Shown here: positions 2,088-15,662 of the stretch, one piece after another | Layout of the letters: the number at the start of each line of letters is the position of its first letter | Numbering within the stretch: position 1 is the stretch's first letter | From: Chromera velia | Lineage: Eukaryota > Sar > Chromeraceae | Assembly: GCA_018398765.1 (NCBI GenBank) | Contig: JAHBMJ010002079.1 | Span: forward strand, 1-22,939 | Length of the DNA: 22,939 nt | Reading direction: 5' to 3' | Position numbers and translations under genes: made by a program | The notes under the pieces: model-generated | Seen by the model: the letters and a program-made list of their open reading frames with translations, nothing else | What the model was told of the DNA's origin: nothing | Database searches by the model: none

Positions 2088-2507
2088 AGGGGGGGTTCCG
2101 CGTATGCTTTTTTCCCGCGNGGGGTTCGGCGCGAGGCTGGCCGGCGTGCGTCAATCGTGCAGTTCTCATTTTTCTTGCTTTCCGGGGCCGTTCGCAAGCT
2201 TACTTGCATCAGATACCCATGCATGCATATGCAGGGTCTGACCCAAACCGCAAACCCATGCACGCGCGCCGAGACCAACATGCATGCACCAGACTGACGC
2301 TTCTGACAGGCAATCGCAGTCTTCAATCGGATCAGGTCACCCAGAAACTCATCATGATCAGAGAGCTGCACGGCTCGGCACCAAGCTAGAGGTGCTCTGC
2401 GTGGAAGAGGGAGGAATATACGGTTCGCGAGCCAGTAGCAGGGTCACTTGTGAAACTCCGTGCGTAATGCTGTATCTACGGTTCTCGGTGTCTCTGTGGC
2501 AGATCAA

Positions 2508-5461
2508 ATGATGCACACGCTCTTCTCAGATCATCTCATATTAGAGGCACGCACAGAGCGATGCTTATCAACGCGGATTATCGGCAACGCAAAGATGTAC
2601 GTGGTGTGCTGCGACTGTCGGTGTTCCTCGGAATTGGTTGTCCCTTTAACCTGGTGGCGTTACTCAAAAGTGGTGTGCGGTCACTGTGGATCTTCCTCCT
2701 GGGTCTGGGGGTTTGGGTCGTCTCGGTTCCTTTCCTCCCCGAACTCTTCCACATCGCTCTCTCACCATGGTGGGTCTCCTAGTGTATTCCGTTTCAGCCG
2801 CAAAGGGCACCGACGGGCTGTCGCACGGATTTGTGCGATCGAGAAGGTATGCGATCGTGCTATCAAGAAGACTACCGCTTTGATCCGGGATCGATGGTGC
2901 CACCGGGAGGAGTTCGTCCAAAGCTTCCGGGCCCAACTGGAAGCTGCAGGCACCTCTGCCAAAGACATCTATTCTGGTCTCAAAGCTGAAGACGAAGACG
3001 AAGAAGAGTATTTCAGAGCCGAAGACAAGGAGCAACTCCTTCGTTACCTGGCCTCCTCAGAAGGATCCACGCGCGCGTCAGTGCGGATCTCGAAGGCAGA
3101 GGAGGCGCTTGACAGTGCCATGGATGTGTGTCTCTGTGCACTCGACGGGGAGATCTGGTTCAGAGATACATTCGGAGATGAGGGACCTCACCCAGAAGGA
3201 TCAGAACTCCCGTGGTGGACAATGTCGCGTGACCCTGCCCGTGGGTAGTGGCGGAGTTGGAAAGAGTTTCTTGGTGCCCTTCTGTTGAAGAGAACGTCGG
3301 GACTCCCGTGGTGGCACATGTCGCGTGAGCTGTTGGGGAGTTGGCGTGAGTTGTTCAGTTCCCTTTTATTGAAGAGAACGGTGCGGCTGTGCAGGGGAAC
3401 AGGAAAGGGAAAGGGACCAGTCAACCAGGTGATGGGGAGTGCCGGCCTCATAAAAAAGATCAGCAGTTTTCTTATCTCATCTGAGAACATGGTGGGTATA
3501 GGAGAGGAGTCTGAGCTTGCTGAATACTGCCGAAGAGATCCTGGGCCCGGGCTGGAATACTGTGGGCGTCCTCTGAAAGTCTGCCTTTGCCCATTCCCGA
3601 ATGACAGCATTCGATGGGTAGAAAAGGAGCTGGACTCGTTGGCGAGTCAGTGGAAATGCAGTTCTCGTTTGGGTCCCTAGGCTTTTCTGGTTTGGCGCTT
3701 TCTCGGGTATTGTCCTGTGTGTAACACGAACATTGGAAGAGGGCGCCAGGCGAAGTGGTGTTGTTCGGAGTGCTACAGGTACGATAAGCAGGACTGGGAC
3801 TATTACTTCGAGTTTTGTTCTGACTGGCATTATATGGCAGACTACGAGGACGAAATTAATTGGGACGAAATTTAGGACAACGACCGCTGGAGTGATCCAG
3901 ACCCAGGCTCTGTATTCGAGGACATGAGGTCGATCGAAAAGGGCCGGATCGAGAGGAGACTGTGTGGAAAACGTTTGGATGCTCGGAAGAGGGAGCGGCT
4001 TCTGAGTAGGGGGGGATCTGGGCGAGCAGGGGGGGCTCTCTCTCCCTCTGAGCGGAGGGAGGGCGTCGGTGGAGACGGTGGGGGGGGAGCACACCTCGCA
4101 GGACGGCAGCTGGGTGGGAAGTCGGGGAAGGCTCTGAAGAGAAGAGAGAGAAAGCGGTGGGGGAGGGGTCTGGGAGGGGACTCCGAGAAAATGGAGAAGG
4201 CAGCAGGAAGGAAGAGACATCAGGGTCCGGAAGAGTCGGAAGAGGAACAGAGCTGCGGTCAGGAGAGCAGGTCGGAGAGAGGGAACGAGGACTCTGTTGG
4301 AGCAACACAGCAGTCTGAGAAGAGAAGTTTTAAGGACGAGCCGGAAGGTGATGATGATCCATCGGGGCAGCTTGAAGGTGAGTGAGCTTTTGACTTTCTT
4401 GCAACTTTTCTCTCGAGACGAAAAATAGACTTTTGGTGCATATATGTCTGTCTCTTGCTTGCGAAATAGGATCCTCTTCAGTACTTTTCTGTACGCGCTT
4501 CGCTCTTTCGTGTGTTCCGATCGACGAAGTCGCGACGACATCATGACTTCAAATGTTTTATCTCGATTTGCTTTTGTTACTGCTGCGGTTGATGCAGGGA
4601 CGGGTGAGAATGAAGAAAGGCGAAACTGACTGGATCTCCTGCAAAGTCTTCTTGTTCGCCTTCCTTACAGCATCGTCCGGTGGGTACGGGGACGAGGGCG
4701 TCGTCAGGTTGGTCACAGGGGTGGGGCCTCTGATGCTCCTTGTGCCTTCAACGGGAATGCCGGCTCTTCTGATGTTCCCTGCAGTCAGCCTCCGTTTCCT
4801 CCTTCCGACCAGCCGTCTCAGAGTCTTCTTCCCCATGGCAACGCCTGGGACGGTCCCTCTCTTCCTCTCCGTAGTGAGCTCCCCTTGTATCCCGGTAGCG
4901 GCGCCTGGGGCGACCCTCCTTTTCCTTCAGACGGCGGCCATCGGTCTGTTGGTCCCCATGGCAACGCCTGGGGCGGTCCCTCTCTTCCTCTCCGTAGTGA
5001 GCTCCCCTTGTATCCCGGTGGCGGCGCCTGGGAAGACCCTCCTTTTCCTTCACACGGCGGCCATCAGTCTGTTGGTCCCCATAGCAACGCCTGGGGCGGT
5101 CCCACTGTTCCTCTCCATAGTGAGCTCCCCTTGTATCCCGGTAGCGGCGCCTGGGGCGACCGTCCTTTTCCTTCAGACGGCGGCCATCAGTCTGTTGGTC
5201 CCCATGGCAACGCCTGGGGTGGTCCCTCTGTTCCTCTCCGTAATGAGCTCCCATTTTATCCCGGTGGCGGCGCCTGGGGCGACCCTCTTTTTCCTTCAGA
5301 CGGCGGCCATCGGTCTGTTGGTCCCCATGGCAACGCCTAGGGCGGTCCCTCTATTCCTCTCCGTAATGAGCTCCCCTTGTATCCCGGTGACGGCGGCTGG
5401 GGTGACCCCTCTTTCCCCCCTCGCAATGCGCCGCCTGTCTATCCTAGAGGCCCTTGGCTGA
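2508..5461 (+). CDS. Unrecognised two-zinc-cluster protein, spliced, three in-frame TAGs
   Basis: Frame 2460-4388 contains only three stops, all TAG (3246, 3678, 3873; codons 247, 391, 456 from the ATG at 2508). ATG 2595 is an alternative start; an in-frame TGA at 2451 bounds the frame. Joining exon 1 (to 4377) to an exon from 4671 keeps one open frame to TGA 5459-5461, 887 codons in total. Seen in the product: C34-x2-C37-x19-C57-x2-C60 (ending CGHC), zinc-ribbon-like; a charged helical region about 120-240 with an acidic run EDEDEEE; an internal duplication around LPWW (240-300); a second cluster CPVC-x13-CSEC (402-422), followed by an aromatic/acidic stretch; a Lys/Arg/Glu/Gly-rich linker (480-623); then hydrophobic 41-residue repeats. 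I do not recognise the family. Zinc binding is inference, perhaps with a nucleic-acid or protein-binding role. The TAGs mean a pseudogene, UAG decoded as sense, or unrecognised introns. The reading frame of the last exon is uncertain (see the 123-bp repeat). Confidence 0.45.
3206..3385 (+). repeat. 96-bp in-frame duplication within the gene
   Basis: The segment starting ctcccgtggtgg at 3206 recurs at 3302. Copy 1 is 96 bp (32 codons); copy 2 lacks four codons, including the one corresponding to the TAG at 3246. In the gene frame both copies encode LPWW, then MSR, then W-R and LLLKRT. In the conserved LLLKRT block a Leu codon differs at two bases (CTG versus TTA) without changing the residue, which supports this frame as formerly or currently coding. 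Confidence 0.75.
4378..4670 (+). other. Predicted spliceosomal intron (293 nt)
   Basis: The donor is GAAG|GTGAGT at 4378. The acceptor is a pyrimidine-rich tract ending ccttccttacag at 4670. In-frame stops begin immediately after the donor, in the frame that was long and open before it. Removal joins phase-compatible open frames. The signals are canonical, but only transcript data can prove the junction. Confidence 0.5.
4831..5445 (+). repeat. 123-bp minisatellite, five copies
   Basis: Units start with cccatggcaacgcct at 4831, 4954, 5077, 5200 and 5323. Spacing is exactly 123 bp (41 codons). The first four copies are about 90-95% alike; the fifth diverges in its second half. Because the period is a multiple of three, three frames stay open. 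The first is a hydrophobic plus frame (VPMATPGAVPLFLS type), which is the one continuous with the predicted splice. The second is a Gly/Pro/Trp plus frame (LYPGSGAWGDPPFPSDGGH type), closed by a TGG-to-TAG change at 5338. The third is a basic minus frame (KEKEGRPRRRYRDTRGAHY type), 5254-4748. Differences between copies do not clearly favour any frame, so I cannot say which is translated. Confidence 0.9.
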
Positions 5462-6473
5462 ATCCTTCTTGATTTTCCTCCTCCTCATACCTACTAGTCC
5501 ACGATCATGCGTCCATCCTCGAAGGCCGTCCTGGTTCTCGTTCTCTTACTGGCAGGCTGCGGGAGGGGAGACGGTCCCGCTAGCTGGTCCTCGATCTGGG
5601 CGGTGGGAAGAGGTACGTGGGGGACGTTCTAATAGTGAAGGAAAAAGGGTCAGGGTCTTGTATTACAAGCACATTCAGTCAGGATGGCCGTCCTCGACCT
5701 CTCCGCTGTGACAGGATGACCTCTACGGATTTTTTGTTTGGTGCAGAGCATGAATTCACAATTGCCCTAGCGATTGCCACGGCGGAGAAGGGAAAAAAAG
5801 GCAAACGCTGTATGTGGGCTAGTATGTGGGGGCATTGTGGGCTCAGGATGCTCAATGACAGTCATCTAATCACATGTAATTGCGATGATGCATGTTGAAC
5901 AATTATGAAGCGATGATGCATGTTGAATAATTATGAAGATTCAGACATTTAATTTACTTTTTTAAAAAAAGGTTTTTGCAAGCTTCTTTAGAAACAATTT
6001 TCTGCATAGATGCCTCTGTAGCGTACGAAGGGAAAGGTTGAATAATAAAAAAAAAAAAATGATTGAAGCAAAGGACTTTGAATGATGCATTAATTTTTTA
6101 TGAGCTTTCCATTATATTTTGTAATGTCAGTTTTTCCACACTGGCAGTTTTCTTTCGGATTTCGTTTTGTTTTCTTTCAATTTCTTTGAGATTTTTTATT
6201 AAAATTCGTTAGCAGATTTCTATTAATTTCCCTACGATTTTCTCATTACAGGATTATAGGATTACATTGTATTCGGGGCCGAAGCCCTAGACCAGCATGC
6301 CAGTTGTCTGACGCCCGCCTTGCATCATACATCCATGCATATTACTCCACTCTATGCATGTATCCATGCAACGGTGCATCCTATTACAATACATGCATTC
6401 TTTTATTACTCTTTAAAAGCTGTAACTACCGGCACATCATTCATTAAATTATGTCTGATTCTCTCTGACGAAG
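5462..6473. other. Gene 3' flank / intergenic, no gene seen
   Basis: No convincing gene. A donor-like AGAG|GTACGT lies at 5613 and an acceptor-like ctactag near 5497, so a further small exon of the preceding gene could lie at about 5500-5612. I cannot support it further. From 5900 the sequence turns AT-rich with A runs (6047-6059) and T runs. Confidence 0.45.
5882..5937 (+). repeat. 28-bp tandem duplication
   Basis: gcgatgatgcatgttgaaca begins at 5882 and recurs at 5910 with one c-to-t change. There are exactly two copies. Confidence 0.85.
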
Positions 6474-9939: not shown

Positions 9940-10575
9940 CTATTTGAACCACTCAAAACAAACACTCGGGGGCAGCTCACCCGCGACTGCTATCTTTACT
10001 TTCAGAAAGTAGAAGGCTCTTTCTGTCTTTGTATATCTTTCATCCATCATCTTTTCTATCAAACAGTCATCTGTTATCAAGAGGCCCAGGTATAGGTATT
10101 CAGATGCCCTTTTCAGTTCTCTTCTAGGTTCTCTTCCGACTAAACTGAACTTATATATCTTCCTTCTTTCCCGGTCTCTTCCCTCCCTCCACATAAAGAA
10201 CATCCATCTTAACTTGGTCAAAAGGGGAACTTCTATGTCTTCTGTGTAGCTTTCCGCTCCCTTCAGTAGTGCTTTAAAACCTTTTTCCTCCTTGGACTCA
10301 AGAAATGCATCGTCTGCATACAGACCTGCGTCAAAGTTCACTGTGCATCCCTGCAATTTGAAACTCACCTTTGCCCTTATCTTTCCTGTCTGTTGTCTGT
10401 CTCCCTCCAGTTCTCTGTCTGCTCTCCTTTTTATTTCAGTAAGCATATCGTTGGTGTTCATGGAGTAAATGACAGGCCCTGCAGGACCTCCCTGCTTCCC
10501 CCCTTTCCTTTTTCTCCACCACCAGTCTATTCCTTTCACTCTCACCCTAATGTCTCTTACTGACTCGATCCACAA
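9940..10575 (-). pseudogene. LINE reverse transcriptase fragment, motifs B and C
   Basis: The longest intact piece of the LINE (about 211 codons). It holds motif B (KQGGPAGPVIYSMNTNDM) and motif C (LYADDAFL), then a thumb-like region with KRASEYLYLGLLITDD, which matches the Y-L-G-hydrophobic segment that follows motif C in LINE enzymes. Motif B reads GGPAGP where most LINEs have QGCPLSP. The frame stops at TAG 9937-9939, although LINE-like sequence (AVWLYGCEIH) continues in the same frame beyond it. Confidence 0.75.
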
Positions 10576-10819
10576 TCCACTTGGCCATCCAATCCGACCA
10601 CTTGTTCTTCTTCAGCTGTCTGTACAGCTTTTCATGTCTCACTTCATCGAACGCCCTCGTAAAATCCAAAAAAGCAATAAAGAGCACAAGAGTACATGAA
10701 ATATTATTCGACAAAAGGAAAATTGCGTCGAACGTACCTGATCCCTTCTTATATATAAATTGGAAAGGTATAGCAGAGTTCATGTACATCCTTTTTTCCT
10801 CATTTGCCCCCCTCATCAC
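10547..10819 (-). pseudogene. LINE reverse transcriptase fragment, motif A
   Basis: A 90-codon piece with a region resembling the G-x-x-T-x-DAIF-L block and motif A (FLDFTRAFDEV, with the first catalytic Asp). It ends ...DRVSKRH then TAG; the following V-R-V-K-G segment continues in the neighbouring frame, so a single-base frame change lies at the CATTAGG word near 10555. Confidence 0.75.
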
Positions 10820-15125: not shown

Positions 15126-15329
15126 GAAAGCCAAAAGTAGACCAGTCAAATTGAGGCAGGCAAGAAAACGGGGGAATGAGCAACACTCGATGAAACCTGC
15201 GCATGAAAGAAGAAGGACGCTCCACCAGAAAGCCAAAAGTAGACCAGTCAAATTGAGGCAGGCAAGAAAACGGGGGAATGAGCAACACTCGATGAAACCT
15301 GCGCATGAAAGAAGAAGGACGCTCCACCA
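15126..15329 (+). repeat. Perfect 102-bp tandem duplication
   Basis: Bases 15126-15227 and 15228-15329 appear identical throughout. The period is 34 codons, so a 96-codon plus frame (15052-15342) and a minus frame stay open across both copies. The open frames are a consequence of the duplication, not good evidence of a gene. Identity of the copies points to a very recent duplication or an assembly artefact. Confidence 0.9.
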
Positions 15330-15662
15330 GAGAGGTGGCTGACCTCAACAATTTTCGGTGAATGCGCTGTTCCAGGTGAACTACGGAGATTGAGATTGAG
15401 AGCAGAGGAGCCAGAGAGAAGCCCAAGAAGAAGCGAAAGGGCGCAGAGAATCAGTCTCATCATGGTTTCCCCACAAACAATAGGCTCGTTCGAGAGAGGT
15501 CGAATCGCCTTGAAAGGTCGACTGAAGCTGAATCACTTGACTTCTTTCGGTTTCGTTTCAGACTTGAAGACTTGAAGTGGTCGGACTGCAAATCAATGCA
15601 CCCTTGTGGCAGCCAGCTATAGGCTTCGGCCAGACTCAAACATGGTCAAACGAATCGTGGAT
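15330..15662. other. Intergenic, no gene seen
   Basis: No gene supported. A short stretch rich in gag/aga words is followed by ordinary sequence. Confidence 0.45.

Follow-up and report, generated by a model that had tools for sequence, protein, structure and literature searches.

A long reading frame interrupted by TAG codons

The stretch of Chromera velia DNA analysed here (contig JAHBMJ010002079.1, 22,939 nucleotides at its full length; hereafter, the window) contains a reading frame on the plus strand, at positions 2454–4385, that comprises 643 codons, including three TAGs, has no other stop inside and is closed by TGA at 4383–4385. A preliminary description of the same DNA had reported a plus-strand frame interrupted only by TAG, at 3246, 3678 and 3873, with no TAA or TGA until its end; our analysis bore out all of these stop positions, whereas the boundaries given there (2460–4388) were a few bases off. 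With TAG tolerated, the frame is longer than the longest one found in any of 300 Markov sequences, each of 22.9 kb and with the composition of positions 2400–5600 (mean 327 codons, maximum 588).

Inspection of this frame alongside a paralogue located elsewhere in the genome (see below) led us to delineate exon 1 of a probably disabled gene at 2595–4377 on the plus strand, with translation probably starting at the ATG at 2595, given that the context of this codon is common to the paralogue (GCAAAGATG). The part of the exon that aligns well, 2595–3785, carries cysteine-pair motifs near each of its ends. The three in-frame TAGs lie in dissimilar surroundings. TAG 1 (3246–3248) is inside the first unit of a duplication, in 12 nt that are absent from both the second unit and the paralogue. 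TAG 2 (3678–3680) corresponds to a Trp codon of the paralogue, within the conserved block LGP-x-A-x-LVWRFLGYCPVC. TAG 3 (3873–3875) falls in a non-aligning acidic stretch, within which the paralogue shifts frame. No residue can be aligned to either TAG 1 or TAG 3. As for the duplication, its first unit (3207–3302, about 96 bp) is followed by a second one (3303–3386, the end being approximate) that is colinear with the paralogue, where there is a single unit. The duplication of 96 bp in frame that had been described previously is real inasmuch as the units start 96 bp apart, at 3207 and 3303, and the in-frame Leu codons do differ synonymously between them, but the comparison requires a gap: the second unit is 12 nt shorter, and an ungapped shift of 96 gives a good match only across the first part of the unit.

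The domain search, conducted with segments of the window and with the paralogue, yielded no match above the cut-off, the nearest one on the gene being to a zinc-ribbon model (E 0.061, positions 3681–3872). Likewise, the protein encoded by exon 1 of the paralogue had no relative among solved structures at E values up to 1, and structure prediction from the single sequence of the read-through window protein was uninformative (mean pLDDT 34).

A second copy of the gene and its coding constraint

The genome searched consists of 177.8 Mb in 4040 contigs, with the window corresponding to contig C2071. A DNA search of this genome identified one other place with similarity to the gene, C644:7999–9680, which is 69–71% identical in three pieces. 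A protein search with this relative as the query led back to the same two places only (3 matches in total at E up to 0.1), a search in which more distant relatives could be missed.

Across 353 codons of exon 1 in a protein-guided alignment of the window copy with the paralogue, dN/dS is 0.46. The identical procedure, run in the other five frames as a control, gave the best score to the real frame (910 versus 602–760), along with the lowest dN/dS of the six (0.50–1.11 in the others, one reverse frame coming close, at 0.50) and the fewest stops, namely, two in the window copy and none in the paralogue, compared to 5–17 in the other five frames. Taken together, the best score, the lowest dN/dS and the fewest stops indicate that this frame was coding; the constraint between the copies is only moderate. 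Mismatches in the real frame are distributed over the codon positions as 99/83/125. A nucleotide alignment with cheap gaps shows a weak codon-position bias (87/74/98) and places gaps of 1–7 nt in both copies, none of which are needed in the protein-guided alignment. For most of exon 1, dN/dS is 0.46–0.48, a value that comes from two copies only and hence is not assignable to a branch.

dN/dS was also determined segment by segment; for the exon 2 segment and the one behind TAG 3, the best-scoring of three frames was used for the paralogue. These values bear on the possibility that a truncated protein of 217 aa (2595–3245) is the functional product whereas the remainder of the gene decays. The first segment includes the N-terminal cysteine pairs and is free of stops, and dN/dS does go up behind TAG 3, to 0.78 (143 aligned codons), as this scenario would have it. 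However, dN/dS is no higher just past TAG 1 than ahead of it (0.508 before TAG 1 and 0.489 from TAG 1 to TAG 2), although this comparison is weak because the values on either side of TAG 1 mostly reflect the time before the stops arose. Furthermore, lower values are found from TAG 2 to position 3785 (0.244, 28 codons) and at the start of exon 2 (0.374, 45 codons). Thus, we regard a functional truncated product as unlikely.

The paralogue itself may not be intact along its full length. Its exon 1 shifts frame near the TGA at L011:4729; this change, within L011:4690–4800, is located in the acidic stretch corresponding to the one with TAG 3873 in the window, and would be due to a short intron or else to both copies being damaged.

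A predicted intron and a predicted second exon with an in-frame TGA

The gene probably extends beyond exon 1. A predicted intron at 4378–4597 (plus strand; GAAG/GTGAGT ... GATGCAG/GGACGG), which is found at the same place in the paralogue, would join exon 1 in frame to a predicted exon 2 at 4598–5472, where the frame runs through a tail of Trp-Gly repeats and closes with TGA at 5470. Past the predicted junction, translation would continue in the Gly/Pro/Trp repeat frame. When the initial 84 nt of exon 2 are compared between the copies, 21 of 27 residues are conserved in this spliced frame, compared to 17 of 28 and 16 of 27 in the other two frames, and the 16 nucleotide differences are distributed as 8/1/7 by spliced-frame codon position.

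In the spliced frame, exon 2 contains a TGA at 4627–4629, where the paralogue has a sense codon. Neither the predicted splice nor this TGA had been noted in the preliminary description. Farther downstream lies a 123-bp tandem repeat (4830–5408, plus strand; 4.7 copies, 41 codons per unit), and here, as the preliminary description had pointed out, the frame meets a TAG, at 5338–5340, where the other units have TGG at the matching place (four of four). The joined gene, then, encompasses four TAGs and one TGA ahead of the end of the frame, and given the TGA at 4627, it is not interrupted by TAG only. The standing of this TGA as an in-frame stop depends on the choice of the acceptor: it holds if the predicted acceptor is used, whereas an acceptor-like site at 4670 would lead into a different frame that is open to 5461.

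The exon 2 tails of the two copies (window 4598–5472; L011:5504–6606) are both Trp-Gly-rich tandem repeats, with repeat sequences that differ between the copies. WG/GW-rich tails bind Argonaute. The repetition of Trp-Gly motifs in the tails of both copies is reminiscent of such proteins, but the likeness is by composition only, with no domain match above the cut-off.

Another scenario in which the gene would be intact is that the TAGs are excised with introns. Indeed, GT..AG pairs that keep the frame can be found around each TAG; for TAG 3, for example, the pair at 3779–3892, with the donor CAG/GTACGA, lies where the two copies cannot be aligned. For TAG 2, however, the 14 candidates shown, out of 18, would remove residues common to the paralogue, which reads through this region; for TAG 1, the 14 shown out of 48 have low scores by a rough measure and would delete duplicated coding sequence; and the TGA at 4627 would require an additional change. 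Removal of the stops by splicing is therefore quite improbable.

UAG is a stop codon in the nuclear genome

A long frame that contains TAG and is devoid of TAA and TGA resembles the genes of protists in which UAG or UAR has been reassigned in the nuclear code, as is the case in several protists. Decoding of UAG as an amino acid was one of the explanations considered in the preliminary description, which proposed, as checks, a search for a tRNA with a CUA anticodon, inspection of eRF1 for altered stop recognition and examination of conserved genes for in-frame TAG, and held that conserved genes ending in TAG would speak against it. The conserved genes and the eRF1 locus read in this genome contradict this explanation.

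Two HSP70 genes end in EEVD, one followed by TAA and the other (L009) by TAG. Inside 37 HSP70 matches that together span 4386 residues, there are 0 TAG, 0 TAA and 1 TGA; this count stems from 72 of 84 candidates that were scored and comprises 38 matches minus a DnaK of the bacterial type. The latter gene is intronless and resides on a 135-kb contig (L007, contig C4039) that is a probable bacterial contamination of the assembly. Eight matches to the tubulin C-terminal domain contain no stop. Among the kinases, 11 of 136 matches include stops, 9 TAG, 9 TGA and 2 TAA; these numbers come from 113 of 735 candidates scored and are tallies of TAGs rather than alignments of the residues at these positions, and some of the kinase stops probably come from introns that were read through.

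The eRF1 domain search matched three places. The exons at L005, from which the motifs were read, have the NIKS and YLCDNKF motifs intact, that is, the standard ones for stop recognition; another match, on C3488, is presumably to Pelota/Dom34, and the remaining one lies on C3696. No CUA anticodon was detected among 52 tRNAs identified with the tRNA family model (63 of 4117 candidates scored), an incomplete set in which there is no Leu or Pro tRNA and one tRNA comes from the bacterial-looking contig C4039. A tRNA pattern search returned 12 UAG-pattern matches, with one tRNA-Arg and no UAG reader among them, the pattern being too strict and insensitive, as is apparent from the numbers (12 for UAG versus 49 reversed; 47 versus 58 for the Gln control). 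The window itself contains no tRNA.

The TAGs outside the gene that might be taken as support for a sense UAG are those of a gag-like frame on the minus strand, in the region 679–1095. The preliminary description noted a lone internal TAG in this frame and guessed, from the context, that it stood for Gln. The internal TAG, at 1041, is there, but TAGs also bound the frame on both sides, at 1098 and 681. The frame belongs to the remains of a repeated element, for which at least 40 matches were listed, including that of the window, out of 275 candidates, and the gag part is covered by 23 other listed matches. At both 1098 and 1041, the other copies that were cut out as loci and examined have a Gln codon (7 of 7). 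Thus, the guess of Gln was right for this remnant, although what it describes is a change private to one transposon copy: the gag TAGs look like private decay within one remnant. As a separate observation, about 94 bp at 661–754 recur at 16 other listed places with 99–100% identity and adjoin the gag fragment at 754–1200, and the 39 other listed matches include none that spans the junction between the two; 661–1200 may be a chimeric transposon junction.

The TAGs of the gag-like frame point to Gln and those of the gene to Trp, a discrepancy that speaks against reassignment to any one amino acid. In support of UAG as a sense codon, either Gln or Trp, in the nuclear genome, there are the TAG-only frame of 643 codons and the Gln codons in the other gag copies; conversely, a conserved gene terminates at TAG, the eRF1 read at L005 is standard, the 52 tRNAs (an incomplete set) offer no reader of UAG, the TAGs align to no single residue, and exon 2 of the same gene carries a TGA. 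UAG is a working stop codon in this nuclear genome, and reassignment can be rejected, with virtually no probability left to it.

Recoding of UAG to tryptophan and readthrough

A more specific possibility is that the gene is alive and its UAGs are turned into UGG (Trp) by A-to-I editing of the mRNA, as happens in filamentous fungi, for which correction of premature stops in pseudogenes by editing of this kind has been described (PMC7306014). For a dinoflagellate, editing of nuclear mRNAs has been reported that comprises all types (PMC5357065). The similarity to the fungal system lies in the occurrence of UAG at Trp positions in a long, conserved frame: two of the four TAGs in the spliced frame (3678 and 5338) occupy such positions, and a change of their second base alone separates them from TGG. 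Furthermore, the window copy shows no net frameshift. It is only these two features, the Trp positions and the missing frameshift, that favour recoding of UAG to UGG.

In other respects, the fungal model does not fit. The RNA folds at the four TAGs are not clearly stronger than those of shuffled sequences (z 1.15, −0.59, −0.19 and 2.82), and neither of the two inverted-repeat pairs listed in 2400–5600 lies over a TAG. UAG at a Trp codon accounts for two of the five stops: TAG 1 and TAG 3 are unaligned with Trp, and one stop is a TGA, at 4627, which conversion to UGG would leave in place. Nor is the host a fungus, with a photosystem I gene, represented by a PsaD exon nearly identical to PDB 9hyu_D, present in the genome. 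We consider A-to-I editing very unlikely, and we would give slightly less credence still to the scenario of a live gene in which UAG, otherwise a stop, is recoded to Trp, be it by UGG editing or by a suppressor that inserts Trp at UAG. Readthrough, also among the earlier suggestions, is unlikely as well, with no positive sign in its favour: the codons that follow TAG 1–3 are TGG, GCT and GAC, and we know of no readthrough motif that these would fit.

A probable decaying paralogue that would mimic a changed code

The remaining explanation advanced in the preliminary description, pseudogene decay at Trp or Gln codons, is the one that our results favour, with Trp found in the paralogue and in the repeat units, and Gln in the gag copies. 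Thus, we propose, with a probability of roughly 0.8, that the gene in the window is one of two paralogues, making up a nuclear gene family with no known domain above the cut-off, and that it is decaying. The two copies are homologous and share a reading frame, and at three of the five stops (TAG 3678, TGA 4627 and TAG 5338), a homologous copy has a sense codon. Under this proposal, the window copy would have been protein-coding through much of its history and would then have gained nonsense changes, three TAGs in exon 1 and one TGA plus one TAG in exon 2, such that it now most likely has no full-length protein product. To judge from the sequence, the copy would be dead rather than rescued. The situation resembles that of duplicated pseudogenes with nonsense codons in that the relative elsewhere has sense codons at the alignable stops, and differs from it in that the window copy lacks a net frameshift and the relative may not be intact throughout.

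The prevalence of TAG needs no special cause because, of the three stops, TAG is the one that the codons of exon 1 give rise to somewhat more easily by mutation. Among random single changes in exon 1 of the window copy (kappa 2), new stops are TAG, TGA and TAA in proportions of 0.48, 0.35 and 0.17, respectively. The chance that three of three stops are TAG is then 0.11, and that any one kind of stop occurs three times, 0.16; when the exon 1 spectrum is applied to both exons, the chance that at least four of five stops are TAG is 0.16.

More awkward is the lack of any net frameshift in the window copy, as far as the alignments show. Copies of a transposon show 59 frame-breaking indels per 2213 substitutions (0.027 per substitution), a rate derived from 21 non-independent pairs of seven copies that are partly coding, and these exons are expected to gain 0.034–0.048 stops per substitution at kappa 2. 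By hand calculation from these stop and indel rates, the chance of five stops without a frameshift is about 0.05–0.11, which is uncomfortable but acceptable; a rescued frame thus retains a certain likelihood.

A frame interrupted by TAG only is a classic sign of a changed code, and in the present case, it is most likely mimicked by a duplicate undergoing ordinary decay. The mimicry would come about when one exon is read alone; the next exon shows a TGA.

Other features of the window

In addition to the gene and the gag-like fragment, the window contains a reverse transcriptase remnant on the minus strand, at 9940–10611, that matches RVT_1 with E 0.0012, below the curated cut-off. In the genome at large, 44 of the 150 RVT_1 matches scored (1759 candidates) contain stops, 29 TAG, 21 TAA and 6 TGA, and the shortage of TGA may come from the codon make-up. 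Finally, 15126–15331 is a perfect tandem duplication of 102 bp and so is either recent or an artefact of the assembly.
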